Source: Clostridiales bacterium
GTDB lineage: Bacteria > Bacillota > Clostridia > Christensenellales > Borkfalkiaceae
NCBI GenBank assembly: GCA_015071005.1
Contig: SVIG01000003.1
Coordinates: 124,001 to 188,000, forward strand
Length of the DNA stretch: 64,000 nt
Reading direction: 5' to 3'
This document shows positions 19,225-63,663 of the stretch, one piece after another; within the stretch, counting starts at the first letter, position 1, and each line of letters starts with the position of its first letter. The notes beneath the pieces are model-generated. The model did not search any database. It was given only the letters and a program-made list of their open reading frames with translations, and was not told where the DNA came from. The position numbers were made by a program, and so were the translations under genes.

Positions 19225-19230
19225 GATATA

Positions 19231-19259
19231 AAACAAGCACCCGATTGGGTGCTTGTTTT
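19231..19259 (-). terminator. Terminator of the fumarate reductase operon
   Basis: AAACAAGCACCC and GGGTGCTTGTTT flank GATT. It lies just after the stop of the transporter gene on the minus strand. Confidence 0.85.
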
Positions 19260-19264
19260 ATCCT

Positions 19265-20653
19265 TTACATTAGCGTAATCATTAGCTGCGATGCAAGTAC
19301 GATTAAAATCAATGCAATCGGATACGTAGACGCATAAGCAGAAGCAACGTCGTCCGTTTTTGCCGTCGAAATCAACGTACCAAGCGCAGGCGTACTCGTC
19401 ATACCGCCCGTAATCGAGCCAAGGTTATTAAGCAACGGCAACTTCAAAGCGTATTTACCAAGGAAGAAACCAACAACCATCGGGAAGATCGTCATAATTG
19501 CGCCGCCTACAAAGCCCCAAACAACGATTGCCGCGCCGCCCGCCGCTTTAATTTCTTGCACCAACGAAACACCGCCTTCGAAACCCGCACCGATCAAGAA
19601 GAGAGCCAAACCAAATTCACGAAGGACTTTAAGCGTTCCTTCCTTTACTTCCAAAGAAAGTTTACCGATATGCCCAAAATGCCCAAAAATCAAGCACATA
19701 ATAAGCACGCCGCCCGTCGTACCGAGCGAGAAACACGCCCCATCATAGCCTTTACCAGTCAAGGGAATTGTGATCGAACCGAGCAACAAACCAGCCACAA
19801 TAGCAAGAGCGAAAGGCAAGAAACCAAAGTCTTCACACTTGAAGAACTTCGAATAATCTCTCTTTTCTTCTTGATTGCCAAGCTTTAAGTGTTCTCTTTC
19901 TTTCGACATATCCGCTTTCAAGAATTTAGGCAACAATTGCACAAATAATACCACGCCTACAACCCCGAAAGGATATGCGACTGCATGGCCTAACGTTATA
20001 AGAGGCTCTTTTGCCGCACTTGCCGCTTCTTTCGCTGCCGAGAAACCAGGCGTCGAAGTTAATGCACCAGAAAGAATACCGGACCAATATTCAGCACCCC
20101 AATCTTTCGGGGTTGCAAGCGTAAAAATAACAGCAACAAGCGTACCCGTCAAAATGATTGCCGCACCAAGCAAGATATACGTTTTGAAGTTCTTTGCCAA
20201 GTTCTTAAAGAAGTTCGGGCCAGCAATAAAGCCAACTGCGCCTACAAACAAAATCAAACCGATATTTTGAATGGGACCTTTTAATGTTTTTACAGGGCTA
20301 TCAGCCGTTCCTTCCATATGAAAATATTTCAAAACGGGAACGTTTGTAAAATCGAGAGTACAAAGCCAACCAAGCAAAATTGCAATTAAAAATACGCCCG
20401 CCGTACCAAGAGATACGCCCTTGATATTAATTCCACCAAACAAGTACCCTAAAGCGAGTATAATAAAAATAATAGTAAATAAAACGAAACCGCTTCTAAA
20501 TTTCGTTGCATCATTATCTTTTATACCGAAAACGTTTTCCAAGCCGTTTTCTTTTCTTGCCATCACCGCGCACCAAACGCCGAGAGCGACTACTACCGCA
20601 ATCCCAATCGCAATCCAAAGCCATTTCAAACTTTTCTTATTTTGATTTTCCAA
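19265..20653 (-). CDS. AspT/YidE/SucE-family dicarboxylate transporter, probable succinate exporter
   Basis: The protein has about 462 residues. It starts at TTG 20653 (eight bases after AGGAG) or at the GTG nine bases upstream. It has 10-12 hydrophobic helices and two copies of the family signature, SGALTSTPGFSAA and GGMTSTPALG. These mark the duplicated aspartate-alanine exchanger domain. The family includes the AspT antiporter and the Corynebacterium succinate exporter SucE1. It is the last gene of the malate-fumarate-succinate operon, directly after frdA. I therefore infer export of succinate, or exchange of succinate for another dicarboxylate. Direction and substrate are not readable from sequence. 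Confidence 0.85.
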   Translation of the reverse strand: MENQNKKSLKWLWIAIGIAVVVALGVWCAVMARKENGLENVFGIKDNDATKFRSGFVLFTIIFIILALGYLFGGINIKGVSLGTAGVFLIAILLGWLCTLDFTNVPVLKYFHMEGTADSPVKTLKGPIQNIGLILFVGAVGFIAGPNFFKNLAKNFKTYILLGAAIILTGTLVAVIFTLATPKDWGAEYWSGILSGALTSTPGFSAAKEAASAAKEPLITLGHAVAYPFGVVGVVLFVQLLPKFLKADMSKEREHLKLGNQEEKRDYSKFFKCEDFGFLPFALAIVAGLLLGSITIPLTGKGYDGACFSLGTTGGVLIMCLIFGHFGHIGKLSLEVKEGTLKVLREFGLALFLIGAGFEGGVSLVQEIKAAGGAAIVVWGFVGGAIMTIFPMVVGFFLGKYALKLPLLNNLGSITGGMTSTPALGTLISTAKTDDVASAYASTYPIALILIVLASQLMITLM

Positions 20654-20737
20654 TTTCACTTCTCCTTTTTTTGACGGACGAAAACGCACAAAGCGTACCT
20701 TCGTGCGTTTTGTCCTTTCTATTTCATCTTTTCCCTA

Positions 20738-22342
20738 TCAATTTGCTTTTCTTCTATAATCGGGAAGAAGTTTGGGGGAGCATACTTCCGTGGAAATACC
20801 TGCTTCTTCAAGTTCTTTCTCGAATGCGTCTACATGGTCGAGTGTGAGCTCTTTAAGCTCTACCGTCTTCCACTTTTCACCTGCTTGCTGACCTGCATTT
20901 CTACCGAATACGATAATGTCGAGCAAGGAGTTACCCATCAAACGGTTCGTGCCGTGGATACCGCCAACCGCTTCGCCTGCAACGTACAAGTTTTCAATAC
21001 AGGTCATACCGTTTGCGCCGATATCGATACCGCCGTTTTGATAATGCAACGTGGGATAGATAATAATCGGTTCTTTACGGATATCGATGCCGTACTTGCC
21101 GAACATACGAAGCATTGCGGGAATACGCTTTTCGATCGTACCTTCGCCGTTAATGATGTCAATAAGCGGCGTATCAAGCCAAACGCCTTCGCCGTCCGTC
21201 GTCTTAATACCCTTGCCGCGTTCTTTACATTCACGAATAATCGAGGATGCCGTAACGTCACGCGTTTCAAGGGAATATACGAACGCTTCGCCGTCTTTAT
21301 TGACAAGCTGTGCACCGAGCGAACGTACCTTTTCGGTTACAAGCGCACCGTAGATTTGCGTAGGCTCTGCCGCGCCCGTCGGGTGATATTGAAGGGTTTC
21401 GGGATAGAGAAGCTTCGCGCCTGCTCTATACGCCAAAACAAGACCGTCCGCCGTTGCGCCGTAGTGATTCGACGTGGGGAAACCTTGATAATGCAATCTA
21501 CCAGCACCGCCCGTTGCAATAACAACCGTCTTTGCTCTTGCGATCAAGATTTCTTTCGTTTCCATATTCATAAGGACCGCGCCTGCAATCTTACCGTCGG
21601 TGTCTTTGATAAGTTCGATAGCCGCCGTAAAGTCTACGACCGTAATACCACGATTGAATACTTCGTCGCGGAGCGTTCTCATAATTTCCGAACCGGAATA
21701 GTCGCGGCAAGCGTGCATACGCTTTCTCGACGTACCGCCACCGTGCGTGGTGACCATCGTACCGTCTTCTTCCTTATCGAACATAACGCCAAGGTTATTG
21801 AGCCACAAAATTGCTTCGGGCGCTTCGTTTACAAGCTTATACAAAAGCTCGGGCTTATTCATGAAATGCCCACCGCCAAGCGCGTCCAAATAATGGGTTG
21901 CAGGGCTATCGTTGGGCTTATCGGCAGCTTGGATACCGCCTTCCGCCATCGCCGTGTTCGCATCACCAAGACGAAGCTTCGTAGCAATCATAACTTTCGC
22001 GCCGCGTTCGTGCGCTTCGATTGCAGCCGAAGAACCCGCGCCACCACCGCCGATTACGAGTACGTCAACGTCGTAATCGATTTTGGAAAGGTCGATTTTC
22101 ATATCCTTGATACGGGAATGACCTTGAAGGAGCGCTGCAAGCTCATGCAATACCTTACCGCCTTTATTTTTCCCTACTTTCAAATCTTCATACGCCGAAT
22201 TGATATAGTCGGGGTGAAATTCTGCCAAAACCGCGTCTTTTTCTTCCGCTGTCATACGTGCGTGCAGGTTTTCTCTACGGAAATCGCGGCTTGCTTCTAC
22301 TTTTTTCATCGATTCAAGTTGTTCATCAGTATAATGATACAT
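20738..22342 (-). CDS. frdA: Soluble fumarate reductase flavoprotein subunit
   Basis: The protein has 534 residues. A roughly 65-residue N-terminal extension precedes the FAD-binding GGGGAGSSAAIEA. The capping-domain and active-site regions follow: QYHPTG, TEKVRSLG, HGTNRLMGNSLLD. Fumarate is reduced at FAD. The position of the histidine that covalently binds FAD in membrane Frd/Sdh enzymes is Asn129 here (GDANTAMAEGG), so FAD should be non-covalent. In E. coli FrdA, substitutions there favour fumarate reduction over succinate oxidation. The long C-terminal helical domain is shortened. No membrane anchor subunit is encoded. Together with FrdB and the Flx-Hdr genes this indicates a cytoplasmic enzyme. 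Confidence 0.88.
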   Translation of the reverse strand: MYHYTDEQLESMKKVEASRDFRRENLHARMTAEEKDAVLAEFHPDYINSAYEDLKVGKNKGGKVLHELAALLQGHSRIKDMKIDLSKIDYDVDVLVIGGGGAGSSAAIEAHERGAKVMIATKLRLGDANTAMAEGGIQAADKPNDSPATHYLDALGGGHFMNKPELLYKLVNEAPEAILWLNNLGVMFDKEEDGTMVTTHGGGTSRKRMHACRDYSGSEIMRTLRDEVFNRGITVVDFTAAIELIKDTDGKIAGAVLMNMETKEILIARAKTVVIATGGAGRLHYQGFPTSNHYGATADGLVLAYRAGAKLLYPETLQYHPTGAAEPTQIYGALVTEKVRSLGAQLVNKDGEAFVYSLETRDVTASSIIRECKERGKGIKTTDGEGVWLDTPLIDIINGEGTIEKRIPAMLRMFGKYGIDIRKEPIIIYPTLHYQNGGIDIGANGMTCIENLYVAGEAVGGIHGTNRLMGNSLLDIIVFGRNAGQQAGEKWKTVELKELTLDHVDAFEKELEEAGISTEVCSPKLLPDYRRKAN

Positions 22343-22354
22343 TTCACGATCTCC

Positions 22355-23029
22355 TTATTTCTCGATTTCTCTATGGTTATAGAGATTCTTTTGTTCTTCT
22401 AACGGCGTGTTCATAATCGCTTCCAAAGCCGCCTTGCAGTCCCCTCTATCAATTTCCGCTACGCGGTTGATAAGATGTTCCGTCTTGGGCGCAAGATACT
22501 TACCCGTAAGACGACGGGTCAAGAGCGCCACTTGGGGATGGGAAATGCCTGCGGGGCAACGGGACGAACATACGCCGCACATTACGCAGTCAAAGCTTTC
22601 TTCCGCAGCTTTTTCGTATTCGCCGCGTTGAGCGTATGCGATATATTGCATAACGTTAAGCTCTTGCGTACAGCTCTTCGTACAAGCATTACAGCCGATA
22701 CACGAATAAATTTCAGGATAGAGCTGCATCATAATTTGCTGCGTGGGTTTAATCTTGTTAATGTCGTACACTTGCTTTACAAGCGGGAAGAACGGCAACG
22801 TCGCTACGTACATACCTTCTTCTACTTGTTGCTGACAAGCAAGGCAGGATTTAAGCTCTTGCTGACCGTGAATACGGTAGATCGTCGCACACGCGCCGCA
22901 GAAACCGTTTCTGCAACCGCAACCGCGAACGAGCTGATAACCTGCATACTCCATCGCTTTCATAATCGTCAAGCTTTCCGGTACTTGATAGCGTTTACCG
23001 AAAAGATATACGTTTACCATATTTTCCAT
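22355..23029 (-). CDS. frdB: Fumarate reductase-like iron-sulfur subunit
   Basis: The protein has 224 residues. The N-terminal half is a plant-type [2Fe-2S] ferredoxin domain (CGCRNGFCGAC, then a fourth Cys in KSC). The C-terminal half has two cysteine clusters, CIGCNACTKSC and CVMCGVCSSRCP. These are expected to hold two [4Fe-4S] centres rather than the [3Fe-4S]/[4Fe-4S] set of membrane FrdB. It would wire FrdA to an electron donor. The gene is 12 bases from both frdA and the FlxA-like gene. The donor is therefore probably the Flx-Hdr complex rather than menaquinol. It starts with ATG after GGAGAG. No hydrophobic segment is present. Confidence 0.82.
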   Translation of the reverse strand: MENMVNVYLFGKRYQVPESLTIMKAMEYAGYQLVRGCGCRNGFCGACATIYRIHGQQELKSCLACQQQVEEGMYVATLPFFPLVKQVYDINKIKPTQQIMMQLYPEIYSCIGCNACTKSCTQELNVMQYIAYAQRGEYEKAAEESFDCVMCGVCSSRCPAGISHPQVALLTRRLTGKYLAPKTEHLINRVAEIDRGDCKAALEAIMNTPLEEQKNLYNHREIEK

Positions 23030-23041
23030 ATCGTTCTCTCC

Positions 23042-23869
23042 TTAGTATTCGTCAGGCAATTCGTCAAGCTCGGTCATGCGGAAGACGGGCCCGTCTTTGC
23101 ACACGAACTTATCGCCAACGTTGCATCTACCGCACTTACCAACGCCACACTTCATACGAAGCTCGAGCGTGGTATATACGCGCGATTTGTCAAAGCCGAG
23201 CTCCAAAAGCCCTGCGAGCGTGAACTTAATCATGATAGGCGGACCGCAAAGGACTGCCGTCATATTCGGGTTCAAACCAAGCTCTTTGACGTAGGCAGGT
23301 ACGAAACCAACGTGTCCGTCCCAGCCTTCCTGCGGTCTATCGATCGTCAAGTAAACTTCCGTATTCGGTTCGTTTACCCATTCCGTTTGGATTTCTTCGA
23401 TATCCACAAGATCGTCCTTACTTCTCGCGCCGTAAACAATTACGACTTTGCCGTAGTTTTCACGATAATGACGAACGTAGTTGATAACGCTTCTCAAAGG
23501 CGCAAGACCGATACCGCCTGCGATAAAGAGCAAGTCTTTGCCCTTGAAATCCCCTTCTACGGGGAAGTTTTTACCGTAAGGACCGCGAACGGTAACTTGC
23601 GCGCCTACTTCCAACGCGTGAAGAACTTCCGTCACGCAACCGCACTTTTTAATGGAAAATTCCATATATTCTTCGTTCGTAGGCGAAGAGGTGATGGAGA
23701 ACATACATTCACCGACACCGGGAATGGATACCATCGCACATTGACCGGGCATATGCTTGAAAAGCTTTTTGCCGTCCGTACCCACTACACGGAAGGTTTT
23801 TACGTCAGGGGTATCCTTGCGGATATCCGTAATCACACCGACTTTAGGAATGAGAGTTTCTTCAATCAT
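23042..23869 (-). CDS. flxA: FlxA-like NAD(P)H:flavin oxidoreductase subunit
   Basis: This 275-residue protein belongs to the ferredoxin-NADP+ reductase/PyrK family. It has an FAD-binding beta barrel (residues 1-100, with MFSITSSP), an NAD-binding domain (FIAGGIGLAPLRSVI, LCGPP) and a C-terminal [2Fe-2S] cluster motif (KCGVGKCGRC...C). In Flx-Hdr complexes FlxA oxidises NADH and passes electrons through FlxB/C/D to HdrA. The start overlaps the end of the upstream FlxB-like gene by 8 bases. That order matches the known FlxABCD modules of sulfate reducers and some Clostridia. It is the entry point for NADH electrons in the predicted complex. Confidence 0.85.
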   Translation of the reverse strand: MIEETLIPKVGVITDIRKDTPDVKTFRVVGTDGKKLFKHMPGQCAMVSIPGVGECMFSITSSPTNEEYMEFSIKKCGCVTEVLHALEVGAQVTVRGPYGKNFPVEGDFKGKDLLFIAGGIGLAPLRSVINYVRHYRENYGKVVIVYGARSKDDLVDIEEIQTEWVNEPNTEVYLTIDRPQEGWDGHVGFVPAYVKELGLNPNMTAVLCGPPIMIKFTLAGLLELGFDKSRVYTTLELRMKCGVGKCGRCNVGDKFVCKDGPVFRMTELDELPDEY

Positions 23870-24908
23870 TTGCTTTACCTCCCAATTTTTTTACTACTTT
23901 CACGATGTTGAGCTTTTGAGGACACTTATTTACGCAACGGCCGCAACCCACGCAGGAATACAAACCGTCGTTTTGCGAAGGATAATACACGAGCTTATGC
24001 ATAAATCTTTGACGGAAACGTTGCATTTGCGTCGTACGGCTATTCCCGTGCGCCATCAACGTGAAATCAGAATACATGCAGGAATCCCAGCAACGGAAAC
24101 GAATAATCCCGTCGCGCGTCTTCACGTCACGAATATCGAAGCATTGGCAGGTCGGGCAAACAAACGTACACGTACCGCAGCCAAGGCAAGCTTCGCTCAT
24201 TTCTTCCCATTCGGGAGCGTCGAACAATTCGTTCAAGTTCTCGGGTTTGAATTTACTCAAATCAAGGTTAGAGAACGGCAAATTGTCAATAATTACCTTG
24301 ACAGCTTCCTGTTGCGCCGCAACTTCCGCTTCGCCGCCTTCTACAAGCAAGTCTTTCACAAGCGCGGTAAGCGCTTCGCCCTTCTCGGTGTTCGCCTGCC
24401 AATAGAGATTGTTTTCATCAAGCCACGTCGTAACGTCGCCTTGGGGTGCGGTCGCGTCGATGCCGAATGCTTTACAGAAACAGCTTTCTTCGGGCTTACC
24501 GCAAGCGAGCGTGACAATCGTCGTGCTTTCTCTTCTCATTTGGTAATAAGTATCAACGGGATCGGAAAGGAAAACCTTATCCAAAACTTCGATTGCTTTA
24601 TAATCGCAAGCCTTTACGCCGAACAAAACAAGCGGTCTTTCGTCGATTTTCTCGCCCAATTTTTCGCGAACGTCTACGATTTCAATATTCTTGCCTTCCG
24701 TCTTGAACTTCATCAAATTTTCGCTTTGAGGGAAGAACGCAGATTTAGGGGATTTTACCGTTTTCAAGGTTTCAAGAGATACTTCTTTCCCTTCCCCCCA
24801 AACGGCATAATTCACTTCCCCTGCTTTTTTGATGGGAATATACAAACATCTAATTTCGGAGATCTTCTCGTAAAGTTCATTCAATCTTTCTTTAGAAATC
24901 TTTAACAT
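23862..24908 (-). CDS. FlxB-like 4Fe-4S dicluster protein (sulfhydrogenase beta-like)
   Basis: This 348-residue protein resembles the beta subunit of sulfhydrogenases and the FlxB component. An N-terminal domain of about 230 residues contains CGKPEESCFC. Two [4Fe-4S] clusters follow, in CLGCGTCTFVCPTC (about residue 240) and CVGCGRCVNKCP (near the C-terminus). It should relay electrons between the FlxA flavin and the FlxC/FlxD-Hdr side. The start codon overlaps the previous stop (TAATG), and the end overlaps flxA by 8 bases. These tight couplings suggest equal stoichiometry. I assign FlxB versus FlxC by resemblance only. Confidence 0.78.
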   Translation of the reverse strand: MLKISKERLNELYEKISEIRCLYIPIKKAGEVNYAVWGEGKEVSLETLKTVKSPKSAFFPQSENLMKFKTEGKNIEIVDVREKLGEKIDERPLVLFGVKACDYKAIEVLDKVFLSDPVDTYYQMRRESTTIVTLACGKPEESCFCKAFGIDATAPQGDVTTWLDENNLYWQANTEKGEALTALVKDLLVEGGEAEVAAQQEAVKVIIDNLPFSNLDLSKFKPENLNELFDAPEWEEMSEACLGCGTCTFVCPTCQCFDIRDVKTRDGIIRFRCWDSCMYSDFTLMAHGNSRTTQMQRFRQRFMHKLVYYPSQNDGLYSCVGCGRCVNKCPQKLNIVKVVKKLGGKAND

Positions 24909-25882
24909 TATTTTACCTCCCCGAATACGTCTTTGGGTTCAGCATCCGCTTCCGTATAAGACGTAAGCGGCGTTTTGCCGTCCGCGGTTTCGCCTGCTTG
25001 ATATTCACCGTACAACCCGTCGATATCCTTGATATACTTTCTATTGAGCAAGTGTAAAGGAATGTTTTGCGGGCACACTCTCGAACATTCGCCGCAATCG
25101 GTACAACGACCCGCTACGTGGAATGCACGAATGATGTGGAAAAGCTGTTCTTCGAACTTATCGTCGTTCGCTTTTGCCGCTACGCCCGAATTCGGGTTAT
25201 CGAATACGCATTTTACGCACGAGCATGCAGGGCATACGTTGCGGCATGCGTTGCAACGAATACACTTGCTTAATTGCGAGCGCCAGAACGCAAAGCGTTC
25301 GTCTTCCGTCATCGCTTCGAGGGCTTCCACTTCCGCAAAACGGTTTACGTCGCGTGCGGGACGTTCGTGAAGAATAATTTCCTCGTCCTTTACTTGATGA
25401 GTCTTTTCGCAAGTAGCGCACTTCGTCAAAACCACGTCGGGTTTGTAGAAGGTCTTTTCGCCATAAGGCGAGAAAGCTTTCACTTCCTTATCCACTACTT
25501 CGACGCCCATCACAAATTCCGCGCCTTGCGCTTTCATCTTTTCGATATCAAGCTTTGCCATACATTCTACCGCGATTACGTACACGTTTTCACGGTTAAT
25601 GCGGTGTTCTTTTACAAGTTGATTAAAGCTATACGTATCGCAGGGTTTCAAAAATACCGCCGTCTTGCCTTCCTTTTTGCAAATATTGATGAGATATTTG
25701 GAAAGGTTTGCGCCGCAGAAATAATCGTAAACGAATTCGTCGAGTTCTTCGACCGTTTCAAATACTGCGGGGGAAGGGTCATAACAAAAATCCCCTTTCT
25801 TCCAGCCAACCACGCGCGCTACTTCACCGTTTGCGAGAAGCTCTTTCGCGCGTTCGAGCATTTTCAATTCAACGTCTTTCAT
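24908..25882 (-). CDS. FlxC-like iron-sulfur protein (FrhB/FdhB-related)
   Basis: The protein has 324 residues from the ATG at 25882, nine bases after AGGAGG; the GTG at 25891 abuts that site and is rejected. The N-terminal half has conserved Cys residues (FCYDPSP, VFLKPCDTYSF, KCATCE). The C-terminal half has ferredoxin clusters CIRCNACRNVCPACSC and CTDCGECSRVCP. This resembles the F420-hydrogenase/formate-dehydrogenase beta family seen as FlxC in Flx-Hdr operons. It follows the MvhD-like gene with a one-base gap. The role is electron relay within the complex. The exact assignment within Flx is tentative. Confidence 0.76.
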   Translation of the reverse strand: MKDVELKMLERAKELLANGEVARVVGWKKGDFCYDPSPAVFETVEELDEFVYDYFCGANLSKYLINICKKEGKTAVFLKPCDTYSFNQLVKEHRINRENVYVIAVECMAKLDIEKMKAQGAEFVMGVEVVDKEVKAFSPYGEKTFYKPDVVLTKCATCEKTHQVKDEEIILHERPARDVNRFAEVEALEAMTEDERFAFWRSQLSKCIRCNACRNVCPACSCVKCVFDNPNSGVAAKANDDKFEEQLFHIIRAFHVAGRCTDCGECSRVCPQNIPLHLLNRKYIKDIDGLYGEYQAGETADGKTPLTSYTEADAEPKDVFGEVK

Positions 25883-25883
25883 C

Positions 25884-26339
25884 TTATTCACCCTCCTTTA
25901 CACGAAGGTCGGTGAGGCGTTTGTTTTCGCCAAGTTCCGTAACAGTTTTTACAAAATCATTCATAACCGCAGCGAACTTCGCACCTTCCGCCGCGGAAAC
26001 CCATTCCACGCGCGTGCGGTCCTTTTCAATACCCATATAGTTGAGCATGCTGAAAAGCAACGCCATTCTTCTTCTCGTATAGTAGTTACCCGTTACGTAG
26101 TGGCAATCCCCAGGGTGACAACCGCAAAGGATAACGCCGTCCGCGCCCTGTTGGAACGCTTTTAATACAAACGTAGGATTTACGCGGCAAGAACAAGGCA
26201 CACGGATAATCTTAACGTTAGCGGGATAGGTCAAACGGCTCGAGCCTGCAAGGTCCGCGCCTGCATACGAACACCAGTTGCAGCAAAAAGCTACGATATT
26301 GGGCACGTATTCTTTCTTTTCAGTCGTTACATCTTGCAT
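25884..26339 (-). CDS. mvhD: MvhD/FlxD-like [2Fe-2S] adaptor protein
   Basis: This 151-residue protein is a full MvhD-type adaptor with the cysteine set FCCNWCSYAGAD, RVPCSCR and CGCHPGDCHY, which binds a [2Fe-2S] cluster. MvhD is the linker that brings electrons from a hydrogenase, formate dehydrogenase or NADH module into HdrA. It is therefore a marker of HdrA-centred electron bifurcation. Its ATG overlaps the end of hdrA by 13 bases, and the FlxC-like gene follows after one base. Because the gene lies between Hdr and Flx genes, NADH (through FlxA) is the predicted donor here. Confidence 0.9.
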   Translation of the reverse strand: MQDVTTEKKEYVPNIVAFCCNWCSYAGADLAGSSRLTYPANVKIIRVPCSCRVNPTFVLKAFQQGADGVILCGCHPGDCHYVTGNYYTRRRMALLFSMLNYMGIEKDRTRVEWVSAAEGAKFAAVMNDFVKTVTELGENKRLTDLRVKEGE

Positions 26340-28318
26340 ATTGCTTCTACCTCCGACATAATTTGTTTGGAACTAAATCCCTTCAAGTCCATAGCTCCCG
26401 AAGGACAGGTTACCGTACAAGCGCCGCAGCCTTGGCAAACCGCAGGGTTCACGTTCGCTACGCGACGGATTTCCGTCTTACCGCCACCGATACGGAATTC
26501 TTTATCCACGTACGTAATCGCGCCGTATGCGCAAACGTTCGCACATTGGCTACAACCGTTACACATCGTTTCGTCGGGCATTGCTACGCAAGGATTCGTC
26601 TTTAACTTGTCTTTTACAAGCAAACCGATAACCTTCGCCGCACAAGCCGATGCTTGGGAAACAGTCTCGGGAATATCTTTAGGACCTTGGCATACGCCTG
26701 CGAGATAGACGCCTGCCGTAGGGCTTTCTACGGGACGAAGCTTCGCGTGCGATTCCGTAAGGAAGTTGTTGGTGTCGATACTCGTCGTCAAAAGGGTCGC
26801 AATCTTTCTAACTGCAGGCTCCGGTTCGATCGCCGCAGCAAGGACAACAAGGTCGGATTCGATCGTGATTTGCTCGTTATCGATCAAGTTCGAGCCCTGC
26901 ACCATCAGCTTGCCATTTTCATTATACACCTTGCCGACCATACCCTTGATATAATCTACGCCGTATTGCTCTACCGCGCGGCGGAAGAATTCGTCGTAGT
27001 TCTTACCAGGCGTACGCACGTCAATATAGAATACGTGCACTTCGGTGTCGGGATATTTTTCACGGATAAGCATTGCATGCTTTGCCGTATACATACAACA
27101 AATCTTGGAGCAGTAAGGTTTACCGCAACCGCTCGTATCACGCGAGCCTACGCATTGAATAAAGGTGATTACCTTCGGGTGCTCGCCGTCGGAAGGACGA
27201 AGCAAAACACCGTTCGTAGGACCTGCCGCGTTCATGAGTCTTTCAAGCTCAAGCGACGTGATGACGTCTTTATTATCGCTATAACCGTATTCGTTGAAGT
27301 TATCAAGCTCAATCGGCTTAAAACCCGTTGCTACGACGATCGCACCGTACTGACGTTCAATAAACGTATCCTTTTGTTCGTAGTCAATTGCGCCTACTCC
27401 GCAGAATTTTTGGCAAATACCGCATTTGCCCGTTTTAAGCTTAATACATTGCGTCGGATCGATTACCGCTACGTTGGGAATCGCTTGCGCGAAAGGAATG
27501 TAGATTGCAGGACGGGTGTTGAGTCCCATATTGAACTCGTTCAAGCCCTTCTTAGAAGGACATTTTTCCATACAAATCTTACAGCCCGTACACTTCGTTT
27601 CGTCAACGTATCTTGCCTTACGGCGAATTTTCACGCTGAAATTACCGACAAAACCTTTCACTTCTTCAATTTCCGAATAGGAAAGAATATCGATATTTTC
27701 GTGCTGAGCGCAGTCCACCATCTTCGGCGTTAAAATACAAGCCGAGCAGTCAAGCGTGGGGAAGGTCTTGTCGATTTGCGCCATTCTACCGCCGATCGTC
27801 GCGTTCTTTTCCACGATATCTACTTCAAAGCCTGCTTCCGCAATATCAAGAGCCGCTTGGATACCTGCGATACCGCCGCCGATTACGAGCGCGCGTTTTA
27901 CAACGGGGCTTTCCCCTGCTTGCAAAGGCGCGTTCAATTTTACTTTCGCAATCGCCGTACGAACGAGAATCACCGCTTTTTCGGTGGCTTCGTCCATATC
28001 TTTATGTATCCAAGAACAATGTTCACGGATATTTGCGACTTCTACCATATACGGGTTCAAGCCAGCTTCTTCCGCCGCTTTACGGAAGGTGGCTTCGTGC
28101 ATTCTAGGCGAGCATGCACCAATAACAACGCCCGTAAGGTTGTGTTCTTTGATCGCCTTTTTAACAAGCTGCTGACCGTTTTCCGAACACATATACTGAT
28201 AATTTGCGGAGAATACGACGCCCGGTTCGCTCTTGATAACTTCCGCTACCTTTTCTACGTCGACCGTTGCCGCAATATTGCTGCCGCACCAACAAATAAA
28301 TACACCTATTCTTTGCAT
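26327..28318 (-). CDS. hdrA: HdrA-type bifurcating flavin/iron-sulfur subunit
   Basis: The protein has 663 residues from the ATG at 28318; an upstream TTG extension is not needed. It has an N-terminal domain with CWCGSN and GACSPRMHEATFR, and an FAD-binding Rossmann motif (VIGGGIAGIQAALDIAEAG). The HdrA cysteine signature is TLDCSACILTP. A ferredoxin insert carries CTGCKICMEKCP, and two C-terminal [4Fe-4S] motifs read CNGCSQCANVC and CQGCGACTVTCP. HdrA holds the FAD thought to split electron pairs, sending one to ferredoxin and one to HdrBC. Length and domain order match full-size HdrA. It is followed by mvhD and preceded by hdrC, the standard HdrABC-MvhD grouping. Confidence 0.93.
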   Translation of the reverse strand: MQRIGVFICWCGSNIAATVDVEKVAEVIKSEPGVVFSANYQYMCSENGQQLVKKAIKEHNLTGVVIGACSPRMHEATFRKAAEEAGLNPYMVEVANIREHCSWIHKDMDEATEKAVILVRTAIAKVKLNAPLQAGESPVVKRALVIGGGIAGIQAALDIAEAGFEVDIVEKNATIGGRMAQIDKTFPTLDCSACILTPKMVDCAQHENIDILSYSEIEEVKGFVGNFSVKIRRKARYVDETKCTGCKICMEKCPSKKGLNEFNMGLNTRPAIYIPFAQAIPNVAVIDPTQCIKLKTGKCGICQKFCGVGAIDYEQKDTFIERQYGAIVVATGFKPIELDNFNEYGYSDNKDVITSLELERLMNAAGPTNGVLLRPSDGEHPKVITFIQCVGSRDTSGCGKPYCSKICCMYTAKHAMLIREKYPDTEVHVFYIDVRTPGKNYDEFFRRAVEQYGVDYIKGMVGKVYNENGKLMVQGSNLIDNEQITIESDLVVLAAAIEPEPAVRKIATLLTTSIDTNNFLTESHAKLRPVESPTAGVYLAGVCQGPKDIPETVSQASACAAKVIGLLVKDKLKTNPCVAMPDETMCNGCSQCANVCAYGAITYVDKEFRIGGGKTEIRRVANVNPAVCQGCGACTVTCPSGAMDLKGFSSKQIMSEVEAICKM

Positions 28319-28372
28319 TTTATTCACTCTCTTTCTTTGGATTTTTTTCAAACCGAATATGCATTCGGGGAG

Positions 28373-28759
28373 TTACTTGTTATACTTTCTATACGCCGTG
28401 ACCAAAAGCTGCTGGGGAATTTGCTCATCGATGATCGGGGGAATTTCTTCCGCTTTAATCCCGTTCGCGCCCTGCGCTCTTACCACCGCGTCACGCACCG
28501 CTTCTACGACGTTCGCGGGAGCTACGCCACGCGGACAACGCTCTACGCACGCCATACACGATAAGCAGTTCCAAATCGCTTTGCTTTCGAGCAGCTCGTC
28601 TACCTTGCCCTTATTGAGCATTGAAACGAACTGATGGGGTTTGATATCCATATCCTTAAACGCAGGACAGCGCCCCGAGCATTTGCCGCATTTCATACAC
28701 TTGCTTACGTCCGTACCGCTTAACCGCAATAAATATTCTTTGAGTTCCGTTTTCGTCAT
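28373..28759 (-). CDS. hdrC: HdrC-type iron-sulfur subunit
   Basis: The protein has 128 residues from the ATG at 28759, preceded by a G-rich site two bases after the hdrB stop. The longer frame overlaps hdrB. Two [4Fe-4S] motifs are present, CMKCGKCSGRCP and CLSCMACVERCP, with the family's charged C-terminal helix. HdrC passes electrons from HdrA to the non-cubane clusters of HdrB. The adjacent order hdrB-hdrC-hdrA supports an intact HdrABC. There is no membrane segment, so this is the soluble Hdr type rather than HdrDE. Confidence 0.93.
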   Translation of the reverse strand: MTKTELKEYLLRLSGTDVSKCMKCGKCSGRCPAFKDMDIKPHQFVSMLNKGKVDELLESKAIWNCLSCMACVERCPRGVAPANVVEAVRDAVVRAQGANGIKAEEIPPIIDEQIPQQLLVTAYRKYNK

Positions 28760-28761
28760 AC

Positions 28762-29535
28762 TTATACCCCCAATGCTTCCGCGAGCAGCTCGGTAAAGTA
28801 TTTCACGGGAAGAATATCGCCGCCGTTTACCTGCAAATTGTACAAGCAAAGCGGACAAGCGGTAATTACTTCTTCCGCGCCCTTTTCTTTAGCGCTCATA
28901 AGTACTTTTTGCGATTTCTGCTTGGGAAGTTCGCTATTTTTCAAGGATACGTACGCGCCGCAGCACTCGTTACGGAAAGGATATACGACGGGCGTACCGC
29001 CGATTGCCTTAATAAAGTCTTCGATGATCGTCGGGTTTTCGGGGTTGTCAAACGCCATTACGCCGCTCGGACGAAGGAGCAAACAACCGTAATACGCGCC
29101 GATCTTTCTATTCAAAGGCTTTACGACCGCTTTCTTGATATTCTCAAAGCCGACGATATTTTTAAGCATTTCAAGGTAATGGATGACTTCCGTTTCCCCT
29201 TTATACGGTTCGTCGAGTTTAAGATAGTTATTCGCGCGGAAACAAATATCTCCGTCCGCTTTCATATCTTCGTTGGTACGCTTGATAACGTTATGACACG
29301 CCGAACAAAGGGTGAGCAGCTTTCCGCCGTTCTTCTTTGCCGCGTCCAAAGCGCGTACCGCAGAGAGCTTGGGAGCGATCTCGTCCGTAGCCATCGGATA
29401 GACCGCGCCGCAACACTGCCAATTTTCAATTTCCTCCATTTCTACGCCCAAAGCTTCCGCACAGCGACGCGCCGTCACGTCTAACTCCTTTGCTTTGGTT
29501 CTGAGCGTACAACCGGGATAATAACTGATTTTCAT
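28762..29535 (-). CDS. hdrB: HdrB-type subunit with two CCG domains
   Basis: This 257-residue protein has two complete CCG cysteine motifs. The first uses YPGCTL, WQCCGA and CSAC; the second uses YYGC, NECCGAY and CPLC. In methanogens these bind two non-cubane [4Fe-4S] clusters that reduce the CoM-S-S-CoB heterodisulfide. This bacterium is not expected to make those cofactors. The acceptor could be another disulfide, or HdrB could hand electrons directly to FrdB. Since both clusters appear intact, HdrB is probably catalytic or redox-active. The gene follows fumarase by 21 bases within the operon. Confidence 0.92.
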   Translation of the reverse strand: MKISYYPGCTLRTKAKELDVTARRCAEALGVEMEEIENWQCCGAVYPMATDEIAPKLSAVRALDAAKKNGGKLLTLCSACHNVIKRTNEDMKADGDICFRANNYLKLDEPYKGETEVIHYLEMLKNIVGFENIKKAVVKPLNRKIGAYYGCLLLRPSGVMAFDNPENPTIIEDFIKAIGGTPVVYPFRNECCGAYVSLKNSELPKQKSQKVLMSAKEKGAEEVITACPLCLYNLQVNGGDILPVKYFTELLAEALGV

Positions 29536-29556
29536 AATACGCTACCTATTTATCTC

Positions 29557-30933
29557 TTATTTTTGCGGATACGCCATTTCTTCAGGACGGAATACTTCGT
29601 CGAATTTTTCCGCTGTCAAGAACCCAAGCGCAACGCACGCTTCTTTCAAGGAAATGTTTTCTTTATACGCCTTCTTCGCCGTCTTCGCCGCGTTTTCGTA
29701 GCCGATATACGGATTGAGCGCGGTCACGAGCATGAGCGAATTGTAAAGATTGTGATGCATCTTTTCCTTGTTCGCCTTGATACCCGTCACGCAGTTGCTT
29801 TCAAAGGACGTGATACCGTCCGCAAGCAATCTAACCGATTGCAGGAAGTTGTAAATGATTACAGGCATAAATACGTTGAGTTCGAAATTGCCTTGCGAAG
29901 CGCCAACCCCTACCGCAACGTCGTTCGCCATAACTTGTACGGCAACCATCGTCATCGATTCGCATTGCGTAGGATTTACTTTTCCTGGCATAATCGAAGA
30001 ACCGGGTTCGTTTTCAGGAATAAAGATTTCGCCAAGCCCGTCGCGAGGACCGCTTGCAAGCCAACGAACGTCGTTTGCAATTTTCATCAAGTTGCAAGCG
30101 AGTGCTTTCAATGCGCCGTGTGCAAATACGAGTTCGTCTTTCGACGTCAACGCGTGGTACTTATTCGCCGCCGTCACGAACGACTTACCCGTCAAAGCGG
30201 ATACTTGCGCCGCAACCTCTTCCGCAAAACCTTTCGGTGCGTTCAAGCCCGTACCTACCGCCGTGCCGCCGAGCGCAAGCTCTTTCAAGCCGGGAAGCGC
30301 AAGTTCAAGCTGTGCTTTCGCTTTTTCGACCATATTCGTCCAGCCGCTAATTTCTTGCGAGAACGCGATGGGAACTGCGTCCTGCAAATGCGTTCTACCG
30401 CTCTTGACAATCCCTTCGTTTTCCGCTTCCAAACGCTTGAGCGTTGCGATAAGCTTATCCATTGCAGGGAAGAGCTTATCTTCGATGGCAACGACTGCCG
30501 CGATGTGCATAGCCGTCGGGAAGGTGTCGTTCGAGCTTTGACTCTTATTGATATCGTCATTCGGGTGCAAAAGCTTTTGACCTGCGATTTCGTTGCCGCG
30601 ATTGGCGATAACTTCGTTCGCGTTCATATTCGATTGCGTACCGCTACCTGTTTGCCATACAACGAGCGGGAAATGTCCGTTCAAGTCGCCCGAAATTACT
30701 TCGTCGCAAGCCGCGCAAATTGCATTTTTCTTTTCATCGGAAAGCTTGCCGAGCTTATTGTTTGCAAGCGCCGCCGCTTTCTTCAAGATACCGAACGCTT
30801 TCGTGATTTCGCGAGGCATAATTTCGTCGCCAATGCGGAAATTTTGATAACTTCTCTGCGTTTGTGCAGCCCAGTATCTATCCGCAGGGACTTGCATTTC
30901 GCCCATCGTGTCTTTTTCAATACGGTATTCCAT
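29557..30933 (-). CDS. fumC: Fumarate hydratase, class II
   Basis: This 458-residue protein has the aspartase/fumarase superfamily signature [13 protein letters not shown]. It also has [25 protein letters not shown] and [17 protein letters not shown], all typical of class II fumarase rather than aspartase. It converts malate and fumarate reversibly without an Fe-S cluster. It lies 17 bases after the malate/lactate dehydrogenase gene and 21 bases before hdrB. That order places it in a reductive route from oxaloacetate to succinate. The start ATG has a weak GGCGGTGA site. Aspartate ammonia-lyase is the main alternative and is less likely. Confidence 0.93.
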
Positions 30934-30950
30934 ATTTTATCACCGCCTAC

Positions 30951-31901
30951 TTAAATTTCAATTTGCGCGATAACGCCTTTAAGCACTTCCGCGCTGTGTT
31001 TCATCTTTTCTACTTCTTCATCGGAAAGCTTCGGCGTAAGCGTCGTCACAATTCCTTCGCTGCTGATTGCACAAAGCGTGGAAAGCGCAACATCGGAAAT
31101 GCCGTATTCGCCGTCCAAAACCGTCGATACGGGAAGAATGCTGTACGCGCTCGAATAGATGCAGTTGATAATCTTCGTTACGCAAGCCGCGATACCGTAG
31201 AAGGTCGCACCCTTGCCAGCGATGATTTGACCGCCCGATTTCTTCACGTATTCTTCCACTTCTTCGTGCGTGTAAGGCGCTACTTTCAAAACGCTCTTAT
31301 CCGTCAACGTATTTTCGTATTCTTTCAGGGGTATACCCGAAATATCTGCCGTCGACCATGCAACAAAGGAAGAATCGCCGTGTTCGCCAAGCACGTATGC
31401 GTGTACTTGCTGCTGATTTACCGAGTAAAGCTCGGAAAGACGAGTTCTCAAACGAATACTGTCAAGCGTCGTACCAGTACCGATTACACGGTTTCTAGGC
31501 ACGCCCGTGATCTTGCAAAAGACGTAGGTGAGAACGTCTACGGGATTTGCAACGAACAAATAAAGCGCGTCGGGTGCGTACTTAACGATTTGCGGAGCGA
31601 TGCTCTTCAAAATGTTTACGTTCGTTTGCGTAAGGTCGATACGGGATTGACCGGGCTTTCTACCCACGCCAGACGTAACGACTACGATATCCGAGCCAAC
31701 TGCATCTTCATACGTACCGAAGTAGATCTTCGCGGGGGAAAGATAAGGCGTTGCTTGTAAAATATCCAATGCTTCCCCTTTTGCTTTTGCTTCGTTTACG
31801 TCGATCAAAACGATTTCCGCAACCGAACCGGTCGCTACCAACGTGTAAGCAACGGTAGCGCCTACCGAACCTGCACCGATAATAGTAACTTTGTTGTTCA
31901 T
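30951..31901 (-). CDS. LDH/MDH-superfamily dehydrogenase, probably malate dehydrogenase
   Basis: The protein has 316 residues from the ATG at 31901, which follows GGAG. It has an NAD-binding GAGSVGATVAYTL motif, GTGTTLDSIRLR and the catalytic GEHGDSS histidine. The overall sequence belongs to the L-lactate dehydrogenase clade. The specificity position, Gln102 in true LDHs, is Arg81 here (SGVGRKPGQSR), as in malate dehydrogenases. Q102R is the classical change that converts LDH to MDH. With fumarase and fumarate reductase in the same operon, oxaloacetate-to-malate reduction with NADH is the better prediction. It is first in the operon. Lactate dehydrogenase activity cannot be excluded. Confidence 0.85.
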   Translation of the reverse strand: MNNKVTIIGAGSVGATVAYTLVATGSVAEIVLIDVNEAKAKGEALDILQATPYLSPAKIYFGTYEDAVGSDIVVVTSGVGRKPGQSRIDLTQTNVNILKSIAPQIVKYAPDALYLFVANPVDVLTYVFCKITGVPRNRVIGTGTTLDSIRLRTRLSELYSVNQQQVHAYVLGEHGDSSFVAWSTADISGIPLKEYENTLTDKSVLKVAPYTHEEVEEYVKKSGGQIIAGKGATFYGIAACVTKIINCIYSSAYSILPVSTVLDGEYGISDVALSTLCAISSEGIVTTLTPKLSDEEVEKMKHSAEVLKGVIAQIEI

Positions 31902-31972: not shown

Positions 31973-32001
31973 ATTATAGCACATTTTTATCCCGCATACA
32001 A
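31973..32001 (-). promoter_or_regulatory. Promoter of the malate-fumarate-Hdr-Flx-Frd operon
   Basis: TTGTAT (31996-32001), N17, TATAAT (31973-31978) on the minus strand, with a leader of about 65 bases. No further strong promoter or terminator was seen down to 19265, so the ten-gene-plus region may be one transcript of about 12.7 kb. Confidence 0.8.
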
Positions 32002-61291: not shown

Positions 61292-61780
61292 ATGGCTCAT
61301 TTACAAGCGGCGGCTGTGCAAAAAATCAATGAGATTTGCGACAGATACGCCCAAGAAAAAACTCCGCTTATGATGATTTTGAGCGACATTCAAAAGGAAT
61401 ACGGTTATATTCCCCTTGAAGTGCAAGAGCTCGTGTCCGCTAAAACGGGGATTTCGGTTGCCGAAATTTACGGCGTTGTTACCTTCTACTCCTTCTTTTC
61501 GCTTACTCCAAAGGGCAAATACGTTATTGGCGTTTGTTTGGGTACGGCTTGCTACGTAAAAGGCGCACAGCAAATTTTGGACAAGTTTGCCGAGCTTATC
61601 GGCATCAAACCGGGCGAAACGTCTGCTGACGGGCTCTTTACTCTTGACGCGCTTCGTTGTATCGGTGCGTGCGGTATTGCCCCTGCGGTCACCATCAACG
61701 GCAAGGTTTACCCCAAGCTTACCGTAGACGCTGTGCCGAAGGTTATTGAAGAATATAAAGCGTTGGAGGCGAACAACTAA
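61292..61780 (+). CDS. hydC: Electron-bifurcating hydrogenase subunit HydC (NuoE-like)
   Basis: This 162-residue thioredoxin-fold [2Fe-2S] protein has the cluster ligands CLGTAC and CIGACG spaced as in NuoE/HndA. An N-terminal helical region with SDIQKEYGYIPLEVQELVS and GVVTFYSFF precedes them. It is the small subunit of trimeric HydABC hydrogenases, which couple NADH and reduced ferredoxin to H2. AGGAGG lies seven bases before the ATG. Its stop overlaps the hydB start (TAATG). Complex I NuoE is excluded by the three-gene context. Confidence 0.9.
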   Translation: MAHLQAAAVQKINEICDRYAQEKTPLMMILSDIQKEYGYIPLEVQELVSAKTGISVAEIYGVVTFYSFFSLTPKGKYVIGVCLGTACYVKGAQQILDKFAELIGIKPGETSADGLFTLDALRCIGACGIAPAVTINGKVYPKLTVDAVPKVIEEYKALEANN

Positions 61781-63663
61781 TGATTAAGAATTTTGAGGAT
61801 TTGAAACAAGTCAGCGCAAAATGCGCCTCCTGCTTAAGCGGAAAATTCACGGGCGCAGACGGCAAACGCCATATCGTTCTTTGCGGCGGTACGGGCTGTC
61901 TTTCTTCGCGCGCGGACGAGATTACTGCGGAATGCAAAAAGTTCGTAGAACAATACGGCTTGCAAGAGAAAGTGACCGTTAACCAAGTAGGTTGCTTTGG
62001 TTTCTGCTCGCAAGGTCCGTTCATTAAAATTTATCCCGAAGATACCCTCTACCGTTTGGTACAGCTTGAAGACGTAGCGGAAATTTTCGAAAAGGATATC
62101 TTGGGCGGCGAAGTCATTGAACGCTTGCTCTACGTTGACCCCAATACTGCGGAAAAAATAACGAAGCAAGAAGACATCAATTTCTATAAAAAGCAAGTGC
62201 GCGTTGCATTGCACGGCTGCGGCAGTATCAATCCCGAAGCGATTGAAGAAGCGCTCGGTGCCGGCGCGTTCCAAGGCCTTGCAAGAGCTTTGCAAATGAG
62301 CCGTCAAGACGTTATCAACGAAGTGCTTGAATCGGGGCTTCGCGGCCGTGGCGGCGGCGGTTTCCCTACGGGTAGAAAGTGGCAGTTTGCCTACGCGCAA
62401 CCCGACGGGGAAAAATACGTCGTATGTAACGGCGACGAAGGCGACCCCGGTGCCTTCATGGATCGTTCAATTCTCGAAGGGAATCCCCTTGCCGTAATCG
62501 AAGGGATGATGATTGCCGGCTATGCAATCGGCGCACAAAACGGTTATTTCTACGTGCGCGCGGAATATCCCATCGCCGTAAATAGACTCCGCCTTGCTAT
62601 CAAACAAGCGGAAGAATTAGGTTTGCTTGGCGACAATATTTTGGGTACGGATTTCTCGTTCAGAGTACATCTTCGCTTGGGCGCGGGCGCGTTCGTATGC
62701 GGTGAAGAAACGGCGCTTTTGAACTCGATCGAAGGTCAGCGCGGTATGCCGCGCACCCGTCCCCCCTTCCCTGCTGTGAAAGGGCTTTGGGACAAACCCA
62801 CGATCGTAAACAACGTAGAATCCCTTGCTTGCGTTCCCTACATTTTGCGTGAAGGCAAGGACGCCTTCTCAAAACACGGTACGGAAAGATCGAAGGGCAC
62901 GAAGGTATTTGCGCTCGGCGGTAAAATCAATAACGTCGGTTTGGTGGAAATCCCGATGGGTACGACCCTTCGCGAGCTTATCTACGATATCGGCGGCGGT
63001 ATCCCCGACGGAAAACAGTTCAAAGCCATTCAAACGGGCGGGCCTTCGGGCGGTTGCTTGACCGCAGAAGATCTCGATACCCCCATCGACTTCGATAACC
63101 TCGTTGCGAAAGGCTCGATGATGGGCTCGGGCGGCGCAATCGTTATGGACGAAGACAACTGTATGGTCGACGTTGCGAAATTCTATATGGAATTCATTTG
63201 CGACGAATCGTGCGGTAAGTGTACTCCTTGCCGTATCGGTACGAAGAGAATGCTTGAATTGCTTACGAAGATTACCGACGGCAAAGCGACGATGGACGAT
63301 TTGGACGAGCTTGAAAACCTTGCGGAAAACGTAAGAAGCAACTCCCTTTGTGGACTCGGTCAAACCGCACCCAACCCCGTACTTTCCACCCTCAAGCATT
63401 TCCGTGACGAGTACGTGGCGCACATCGTTGACAAGAAATGTCCCGCGCATATTTGTAAGAACTTGATGCAGTACCAAATTGAAGCAGATAAATGCTTCGG
63501 CTGCGGTGTTTGCGCAAGAGCTTGCCCCGTAAACGCGTTCGTAAAGACCGACTATATTGCGCCGGGGAAGAGATTGCCGGCGTATGCGGTCGATCAAGAT
63601 AAGTGTATCAAGTGCGGTATGTGTATCGCTTCGTGTAAGTTCAAAGCGATCGTGAAAAAGTAA
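61780..63663 (+). CDS. hydB: Electron-bifurcating hydrogenase subunit HydB (NuoF-like)
   Basis: The protein has 627 residues. An N-terminal [2Fe-2S] thioredoxin-like domain (CGGTGCLSS, VGCFGFCSQGP) leads into the FMN/NADH-binding NuoF core (GLRGRGGGGFPTGRKW, NGDEGDPGAFMDR, GAGAYVC-type GAGAFVCGEETAL). The [4Fe-4S] ligands follow in ESCGKCTPCRIG. Two C-terminal ferredoxin clusters are CFGCGVCARACP and CIKCGMCIASC. It is the NADH-handling subunit where bifurcation at FMN is thought to occur. The start overlaps hydC by one base, and hydA follows after 13 bases. Confidence 0.93.
   Translation: MIKNFEDLKQVSAKCASCLSGKFTGADGKRHIVLCGGTGCLSSRADEITAECKKFVEQYGLQEKVTVNQVGCFGFCSQGPFIKIYPEDTLYRLVQLEDVAEIFEKDILGGEVIERLLYVDPNTAEKITKQEDINFYKKQVRVALHGCGSINPEAIEEALGAGAFQGLARALQMSRQDVINEVLESGLRGRGGGGFPTGRKWQFAYAQPDGEKYVVCNGDEGDPGAFMDRSILEGNPLAVIEGMMIAGYAIGAQNGYFYVRAEYPIAVNRLRLAIKQAEELGLLGDNILGTDFSFRVHLRLGAGAFVCGEETALLNSIEGQRGMPRTRPPFPAVKGLWDKPTIVNNVESLACVPYILREGKDAFSKHGTERSKGTKVFALGGKINNVGLVEIPMGTTLRELIYDIGGGIPDGKQFKAIQTGGPSGGCLTAEDLDTPIDFDNLVAKGSMMGSGGAIVMDEDNCMVDVAKFYMEFICDESCGKCTPCRIGTKRMLELLTKITDGKATMDDLDELENLAENVRSNSLCGLGQTAPNPVLSTLKHFRDEYVAHIVDKKCPAHICKNLMQYQIEADKCFGCGVCARACPVNAFVKTDYIAPGKRLPAYAVDQDKCIKCGMCIASCKFKAIVKK

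Follow-up and report, generated by a model that had tools for sequence, protein, structure and literature searches.

From which donor, and along which route, does a soluble fumarate reductase receive its electrons when its genes stand in one operon with heterodisulfide reductase-like (Hdr) and Flx genes? This question is raised by a 64,000-nucleotide stretch of the genome of a Clostridiales bacterium (assembly GCA_015071005.1, contig SVIG01000003.1, positions 124,001 to 188,000; hereafter the window), in which twelve tightly packed minus-strand genes were found at 19265-31901 in the order mdh-fumC-hdrB-hdrC-hdrA-flxD-flxB-flxC-flxA-frdB-frdA-aspT. All of the open reading frames (ORFs) were present in the order given by a first-pass annotation, which had been made from the letters of the DNA. 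Profile matches also bore out the families that it had named for fumarase, HdrB, HdrC, HdrA, MvhD/FlxD, the FlxB/C-like pair, FlxA, FrdB, FrdA and the carrier. The operon probably encodes the last steps of the reductive succinate branch, with a directly coupled, bifurcating, NADH-driven soluble fumarate reductase and a carrier; complex formation, bifurcation, the direction of the reaction and the role of HdrB as a direct wire are what we infer. The first-pass annotation knew of no characterised enzyme of such composition. The system is nevertheless not new in kind, as its layout and its coupling to ferredoxin had already been proposed in print for Pseudoclostridium thermosuccinogenes, although without biochemical proof in the literature read (PMC7282089). 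What is added here is its breadth and modularity: FrdBA occurs with HdrBC alone, with HdrABC, with HdrABC-FlxABCD or with none of them, across bacteria and archaea.

Conservation of the gene block

Relatives of FrdA were found in 50 of 151 genomes in a family scan (E<=1e-60) and in 39 of 398 genomes in a phylum scan (E<=1e-100), the window's own genome being included in both counts. The first set of loci comprised 80, with 39 from 38 other phylum genomes (one genome gave two), one from genome G113 and 40 from the family. The second set, from a scan of named genomes, comprised the best 80 of 292 confirmed relatives; it leans to close relatives and is no census. Some genomes recur across the sets (for example, L124/L097, L125/L113, L126/L109 and L177/L071), and the counts are therefore not independent of each other.

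The nine core genes, hdrBCA-flxDBCA-frdBA, were complete in all 35 of the 40 family loci that extended at least 8 kb upstream; fumC was present in 32 of these 35 and mdh in 21. Where a family locus extended 1.6 kb or more downstream, a homologue of the carrier gene aspT was found in 33 of 36 cases. Among the best 80 loci of the named-genome scan, 46 were of the Flx type. Upstream sequence reached 8 kb or more in 37 of them, and 35 of these held all nine core genes; the exceptions were L156, which had no flxC match, and L192, which had only a flxA-like match beside frdBA. Carriers of the block included Ruminococcus flavefaciens FD-1 (L143), Ohessyouella blattaphilus (L147), Treponema sp. Marseille-Q4130 (L165) and also Lachnospiraceae. 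The linkage of frd to hdr and flx, whose absence from relatives had been set beforehand as a refuting condition, thus held in the family loci and in the named Flx-type loci.

Active-site and cofactor residues

The FrdA positions aligned to E. coli SdhA R286, H242, E255, H354 and R399 were invariant in 155 of 155 distinct homologues, and Thr336, which precedes the E255 equivalent, was Thr in 154 and Ser in one. The window FrdA thus retained six residues that align with the active site of succinate dehydrogenase/fumarate reductase. We take the functional roles of the SdhA-equivalent positions to be those of the catalytic Arg, the substrate-binding His, His, Arg and Glu, and the flavin adenine dinucleotide (FAD) His site. 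At the covalent-FAD His position, Asn was found in all 155 homologues, and the FAD should therefore be bound non-covalently. Family searches gave FrdA an N-terminal extension of about 88 residues and no match to the Succ_DH_flav_C domain. An identity of FrdA as L-aspartate oxidase was rejected, as the NadB models matched more weakly (best E 2.1e-83) than TfrA (E 2.9e-106); NadB is also not known to need an FrdB.

The first-pass annotation had described FrdB as a protein with a [2Fe-2S] and two cubane motifs; in agreement, its four [2Fe-2S] and eight [4Fe-4S] cysteines, 12 ligands in all, were invariant in 151 of 151 distinct homologues. In HdrB, each of the ten CCG cysteines was kept in at least 106 of 108 distinct homologues.

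Proposed electron path

Electrons from NADH would enter at FlxA and pass through FlxC/FlxB and the [2Fe-2S] cluster of FlxD to the flavin of HdrA. FlxA and FlxC matched the gamma chain (E 1.7e-55) and beta chain (E 5.4e-42), respectively, of Sulfhydrogenase 1, and FlxB matched FdhB chains of Hdr complexes (best E 6.5e-26); judged by these matches, the three proteins form a plausible input from NAD(P)H to MvhD. FlxD matched MvhD chains of Hdr complexes (best E 6.3e-49). At the HdrA flavin, the electron pair would split: one electron would travel through the C-terminal ferredoxin-like clusters of HdrA to ferredoxin, and the second would pass through HdrC, HdrB and FrdB to the FrdA flavin, where fumarate would be reduced. 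HdrB matched HdrB chains of solved structures (best E 2.9e-38). HdrA matched, practically from end to end, the crystallised, bifurcating methanogen HdrA (5odc_A) with 697 bits across residues 3-660, with its Fe-S cysteine motifs aligned by eye; the HdrA2 model, which covers MvhD too, gave 801 bits, under its cut-off of 1100.

The net reaction would be 2 NADH + fumarate + oxidised ferredoxin -> 2 NAD+ + succinate + reduced ferredoxin. The standard potentials are -320 mV for NADH, about -420 mV for ferredoxin and +33 mV for fumarate; with these generally known values, the reaction would be worth about -49 kJ/mol.

Genome setting

The source genome is 1.69 Mb in size and 94% complete. No match to the UbiA-type quinone prenyltransferase family was found in it, while the positive control matched in 14 of 14 genomes. 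Phosphoenolpyruvate carboxykinase (PEPCK) of the GTP type was present, and the ATP type was not found in the genome. Together with the operon, the genes from phosphoenolpyruvate through oxaloacetate, malate and fumarate to succinate are therefore all present.

Two [FeFe] hydrogenases were found. One of them, a group-A6 HydA, lies just beyond the right end of the window, after NuoE- and NuoF-like genes at 61292-63663 (also L203, 3178-4944); these genes likely encode a HydABC-type bifurcating hydrogenase that serves as a ferredoxin outlet. In the simplest case, reduced ferredoxin would be reoxidised here jointly with NADH by this hydrogenase, and the cell would thereby dispose of NADH in the form of H2 and succinate, which would bring it redox balance and not an ion gradient. 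Neither RnfD/NqrB nor a [NiFe] hydrogenase (such as Ech) was found in the source genome, and the "energy-conserving fumarate respiration" of the first-pass annotation is thus unsupported there. As no ferredoxin-driven ion pump was detected, the wording should be "redox-balancing fumarate reduction".

Rnf as the ferredoxin outlet was considered and rejected; an RnfC-like match on contig 6 scored 182.7 against an rnfC cut-off of 245.95, in addition to the missing RnfD/NqrB. This RnfC-like protein (L202, 3650-8105) is encoded next to a shell protein of a microcompartment and to a glycyl-radical enzyme, and with its score below the cut-off it was read as PduS/PrdC-like.

Distribution and partners of FrdBA

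Outside the main Flx clade, FrdBA was linked to HdrBC alone (for example, in L056, L064 and L179) or to HdrABC with MvhD (L047, L061, L181 and L184). The fact that HdrBC adjoin FrdBA even where neither HdrA nor Flx is linked points to HdrB as the nearest partner of FrdB. None of the ORFs in the 160 loci combined two different query proteins at 50% query coverage, and fusions of HdrB or HdrC with FrdB were thus not found there. Where no Hdr was linked, neighbours of FrdBA included class I fumarase and malic enzyme (L052), malic enzyme (L068), pyruvate carboxylase (L042) and malate/lactate dehydrogenase (L046); in L047, in which Hdr lies downstream, fumarase C was found upstream of FrdBA. The presence of succinate-branch enzymes near FrdBA in some other lineages supports fumarate as the substrate.

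In a quick FrdA tree of 122 rows, which included 6 of the 40 family loci, the Flx label was clustered, with 8 changes compared with a shuffled mean of 39.6; the starred branches force at least 6. The full gene set was found at two separated positions, namely the main clade and the pair L075 and L201 (100% in the Shimodaira-Hasegawa-like approximate likelihood ratio test, SH-aLRT). In L075, hdrC lies ahead of hdrB, and L201 had no hdrC match.

It is an even question, in our estimate, whether FrdBA and HdrBC together form a catalytic cassette shared by bacteria and archaea, with HdrB as a protein wire instead of a disulfide reductase and with interchangeable inputs (none, HdrA-MvhD or Flx). The Flx version would then be a distinct class of flavin-based bifurcating enzyme with fumarate as the high-potential acceptor, and a main succinate route in some Treponema and in gut Clostridia that, like the present one, give no indication of quinones.

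Several other arrangements were observed. On contigs titled as archaeal (Thermoplasmata, Culexarchaeum and Theionarchaea), HdrBC-FrdBA was found in L175, L178, L179 and L184, with HdrA-MvhD also in L175 and L184. FrdBA of Nitrospira/Nitrospirae (L195, L197, L199 and L200) also fell into this family, where it sits on a long branch; Hdr was unlinked in the three loci with enough flank, L200 being too short. In L059 an Fe-S protein that binds flavin mononucleotide was found near FrdBA, and in L069 a multihaem cytochrome of the NapC/c7 type; these neighbours suggest a further kind of electron input.

Alternative explanations

Three other accounts of the operon were weighed against a directly coupled, bifurcating enzyme. 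The strongest of these is a relay through a thiol. Flx-Hdr would reduce both ferredoxin and a small disulfide by bifurcation; the thiol would then be oxidised, and fumarate reduced, by FrdBA on its own or together with another protein of the HdrB type, as in the methanogen thiol:fumarate reductase. Several points speak for this relay: HdrB retains all ten CCG cysteines; among NCBIfam models FrdA was matched best by TfrA, and among Sdh/Frd models FrdB was matched best by TfrB; and Flx-Hdr has been described as an electron donor to ferredoxin and thiols (PMC7282089). It is weakened by the single CCG-domain protein of the genome (E<=0.001; two stretches, both in hdrB), whereas by our reasoning the route needs both a thiol-forming and a thiol-oxidising site, and by the occurrence of HdrBC beside FrdBA without linked HdrA or Flx. 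Coenzymes M and B are also not known in these bacteria, and on balance we consider a thiol relay unlikely. We regard it as distinctly improbable that FrdBA works independently as a soluble fumarate reductase, with its electrons coming from reduced ferredoxin or some other donor, and that it shares the operon with Flx-Hdr only through a common fermentation. The FrdBA loci and genomes without Hdr that are described below fit such an enzyme, but the nine-gene order in every family locus with sufficient flank and the recurrence of FrdBA-HdrBC or FrdBA-HdrABC linkage in several phyla argue against it. The third cluster motif of FrdB is moreover of the [4Fe-4S] type, as in HdrC and the E-type enzymes, and not of the quinone-type [3Fe-4S]. 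Very little weight is given to an NADH-linked enzyme without bifurcation, in which HdrA would merely relay electrons from NADH to fumarate. This transfer is already downhill by the standard potentials; however, a relay would need neither the ferredoxin domain with two clusters at the C-terminus of HdrA nor the further Fe-S motifs typical of HdrA, all of which are retained. A quinol:fumarate reductase (FrdABCD) was rejected, as the operon has no gene for an anchor, the genome gave no match to UbiA and FrdA lacks the His for covalent FAD.

The bifurcating enzyme itself has to be set against a number of observations that weigh against it. The cluster set for disulfide reduction in HdrB is apparently complete, and a plain wire would not need such a set. 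In 22 fetched FrdBA loci with at least 5.5 kb upstream (a few genomes being counted twice), no same-strand hdr or flx match was found. HdrA was searched (E<=1e-60) in 17 genomes that were chosen since their fetched FrdBA locus had no linked Hdr, some of the contigs being short; it was present elsewhere in 13 of them and was not found at this threshold in four, namely G217 and three genomes of a family denoted f70. RnfD/NqrB-type genes were present in all three f70 genomes and in G217 none were found, and the f70 FrdA sits within the clade of Flx-linked FrdA in the quick tree. Family f70 looks like a loss of the bifurcating part, and FrdBA can thus probably work without bifurcation. Some scanned neighbours of FrdBA do not belong to the succinate branch: a BCCT carrier (L077), MmgE/PrpD (L078), isocitrate/isopropylmalate dehydrogenase (L079) and an Fe-S protein (L080), of which L078-L080 are deep FrdBA lineages. 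The absences in the source genome are provisional given its completeness, and biochemistry on these proteins was not found in the literature searched. In P. thermosuccinogenes, H2 addition nearly abolished succinate, which is what ferredoxin coupling predicts; the lowering of the culture redox potential by sulfide acted in the opposite direction to H2 addition (PMC7282089).

The claim of NADH-driven, ferredoxin-coupled fumarate reduction therefore stands in part. It is favoured by the frd-hdr/flx linkage, the conserved cofactor and catalytic residues and the lack of a UbiA match, but bifurcation is not general to the whole FrdBA family, given the 22 unlinked loci and the four genomes without HdrA. 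As a separate observation in f70 (L042-L044), pyruvate carboxylase adjoins FrdBA in L042, and an ORF of equal length (1144 aa) was found in L043 and L044.

Comparison with known systems

A 2019 preprint by Koendjbiharie and van Kranenburg reportedly deals with the succinate operon of P. thermosuccinogenes. This "succinate operon" contains fumarate hydratase, Flx-Hdr, two fumarate reductase genes and a hypothetical protein that is a possible succinate transporter, and the proposal that its fumarate reduction is coupled to ferredoxin dates from 2019-2020 (PMC7282089). The order of fumarase, Flx-Hdr, two frd genes and transporter is the same in both operons, and the published locus-tag range, in steps of five, fits seven Flx-Hdr genes; the likeness is one of gene order and naming, with homology presumed from those, and no P. 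thermosuccinogenes record was among the best 80 loci of the named-genome scan. The window differs in having mdh in front. GTP-PEPCK is common to both organisms, whereas the Rnf and Ech of P. thermosuccinogenes (PMC7282089) had no counterpart in the source genome among the RnfD/NqrB and [NiFe] hydrogenase searches.

Compared by gene set, the operon resembles FlxABCD-HdrABC of Desulfovibrio vulgaris in having HdrABC, FlxD/MvhD, an NAD(P)H-binding FlxA and two Fe-S subunits. The D. vulgaris system reportedly has no frd genes and a disulfide acceptor (Ramos 2015), whereas the window has FrdBA within the block. The Methanothermobacter thiol:fumarate reductase TfrAB is said to have a soluble FrdA-like subunit and to hold FrdB-type and HdrB-type domains together (Heim 1998). 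On the 488-position TfrB model, FrdB matched the first part and HdrB the last; these are separate genes in the window but fused in TfrB. The window proteins scored far under the cut-offs of the TfrAB models (356 of 718 for TfrA and 38 of 385 for TfrB), and six relatives tested were likewise under the TfrA cut-off. Soluble NADH-dependent fumarate reduction is common to the proposed enzyme and to that of Hydrogenobacter thermophilus, which reportedly has five subunits encoded by scattered genes and no reported bifurcation (Miura 2008).

The E-type SdhABE enzymes, or 8-methylmenaquinol:fumarate reductases, share with the operon FrdA, an FrdB in which a second [4Fe-4S] cluster replaces [3Fe-4S], and a 10-cysteine HdrB-like third subunit (PMC2680327). 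In these enzymes the third subunit is a membrane anchor (PMC2680327), and the donor is 8-methylmenaquinol by NCBIfam name. In contrast, the match to the SdhE model scored 134 against a cut-off of 500, and no sign of a quinol donor was found with UbiA, the only quinone gene family searched. In tubeworm symbionts and related Gammaproteobacteria, flxABCD-hdrABC is interspersed with korABCD and tfrAB, and direct electron shuttling was suggested by the authors (PMC6315080). Those clusters serve carbon fixation by the reductive tricarboxylic acid cycle with 2-oxoglutarate:ferredoxin oxidoreductase genes (PMC6315080), whereas the window holds a fermentative succinate branch. The fumarate reductase of Blautia luti was assayed with methyl viologen, and the text contains neither of the terms hdr and heterodisulfide (PMC12773636). 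No paper was found under the phrase "bifurcating fumarate reductase".

Operon layout and gene identities

The intergenic distances from mdh to aspT were 17, 21, 2, 54, -13, -8, -1, -8, 12, 12 and 48 nt; adjacent genes from hdrA through flxA overlap by 1 to 13 nt, and the remaining gaps are 2 to 54 nt. By our reading of the sequence, a Shine-Dalgarno-like sequence precedes most of the twelve starts. As the first-pass annotation had noted, the family matches of all twelve genes revealed neither a cytochrome b nor a membrane anchor.

A promoter at the start and a terminator at the end had also been described. Candidates for both were found (Table 1), and a terminator-like hairpin at 32106-32080, after which the extended -10 box comes, sets the operon apart from the upstream gene. 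However, no good -35 precedes the box TGCTATAAT, which is why it was missing from the consensus promoter scan, and the window held 17 terminator-like matches compared with 18.4 expected from shuffles, i.e., not more than by chance. Taken alone, the boundary signals are therefore weak; it is the conservation of the gene order, and not these signals, that exceeds chance.

The first gene had been called malate/lactate dehydrogenase, and both NCBIfam models scored above their cut-offs (L-lactate dehydrogenase, 350 bits against 339; malate dehydrogenase PRK06223, 288.9 against 283). By NCBIfam name it is an L-lactate dehydrogenase, and its motif GRKPG carries Arg at the position that presumably distinguishes malate from lactate dehydrogenase. 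Arg was found there in 42 of the 48 loci with a homologue, and six had no motif match.

Table 1. Positions of the operon genes and candidate signals in the window.
Feature	Positions	Strand	Description	Evidence
Candidate promoter	31973..31981	-	extended -10 box TGCTATAAT, without consensus -35	read from sequence
mdh	30951..31901	-	malate (or lactate) dehydrogenase, 316 aa	Ldh_1_N/C domains
fumC	29557..30933	-	class II fumarase, 458 aa	TIGR00979, 730 bits (cut-off 664.75)
hdrB	28762..29535	-	HdrB/SdhE-like protein, two CCG domains, 257 aa	CCG x2
hdrC	28373..28759	-	two [4Fe-4S] protein, 128 aa, ATG at 28759	TIGR03290, E 2.6e-19 (under cut-off); Fer4 dicluster
hdrA	26327..28318	-	flavin and Fe-S protein, presumed bifurcation site, 663 aa	match to methanogen HdrA 5odc_A
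flxD (MvhD)	25884..26339	-	[2Fe-2S] link to HdrA, 151 aa	FlpD/MvhD family; FlpD, 191 bits
flxB	24908..25891	-	flxB-like Fe-S adaptor, 327 aa	dicluster Fer4
flxC	23862..24908	-	flxC-like Fe-S protein, 348 aa	PF17179
flxA	23042..23869	-	FAD/NAD(P)-binding diaphorase, DHODB/AsrB-like, 275 aa	NAD_binding_1, DHODB_Fe-S_bind
frdB	22355..23029	-	[2Fe-2S] and two [4Fe-4S] protein, 224 aa	Fer2 and Fer4
frdA	20738..22342	-	fumarate reductase flavoprotein, 534 aa	FAD_binding_2; best NCBIfam TfrA, E 2.9e-106 (under cut-off)
aspT	19265..20689 (start perhaps 20659, our reading)	-	AspT/YidE-like dicarboxylate or amino-acid carrier	PF06826 (Asp-Al_Ex), two stretches
Candidate terminator	19228..19261	.	15-bp hairpin behind the last gene, aspT	hairpin scan

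Significance

Ruminococcus flavefaciens FD-1, which is cultured and harmless, has the same block, and the idea is thus testable in a named rumen strain. If a directly coupled, bifurcating fumarate reductase is true, fumarate would join the acceptors used by Hdr-type bifurcation. It would also explain how fumarate is reduced in gut bacteria without quinones and why the yields of succinate and H2 would be linked in such bacteria.

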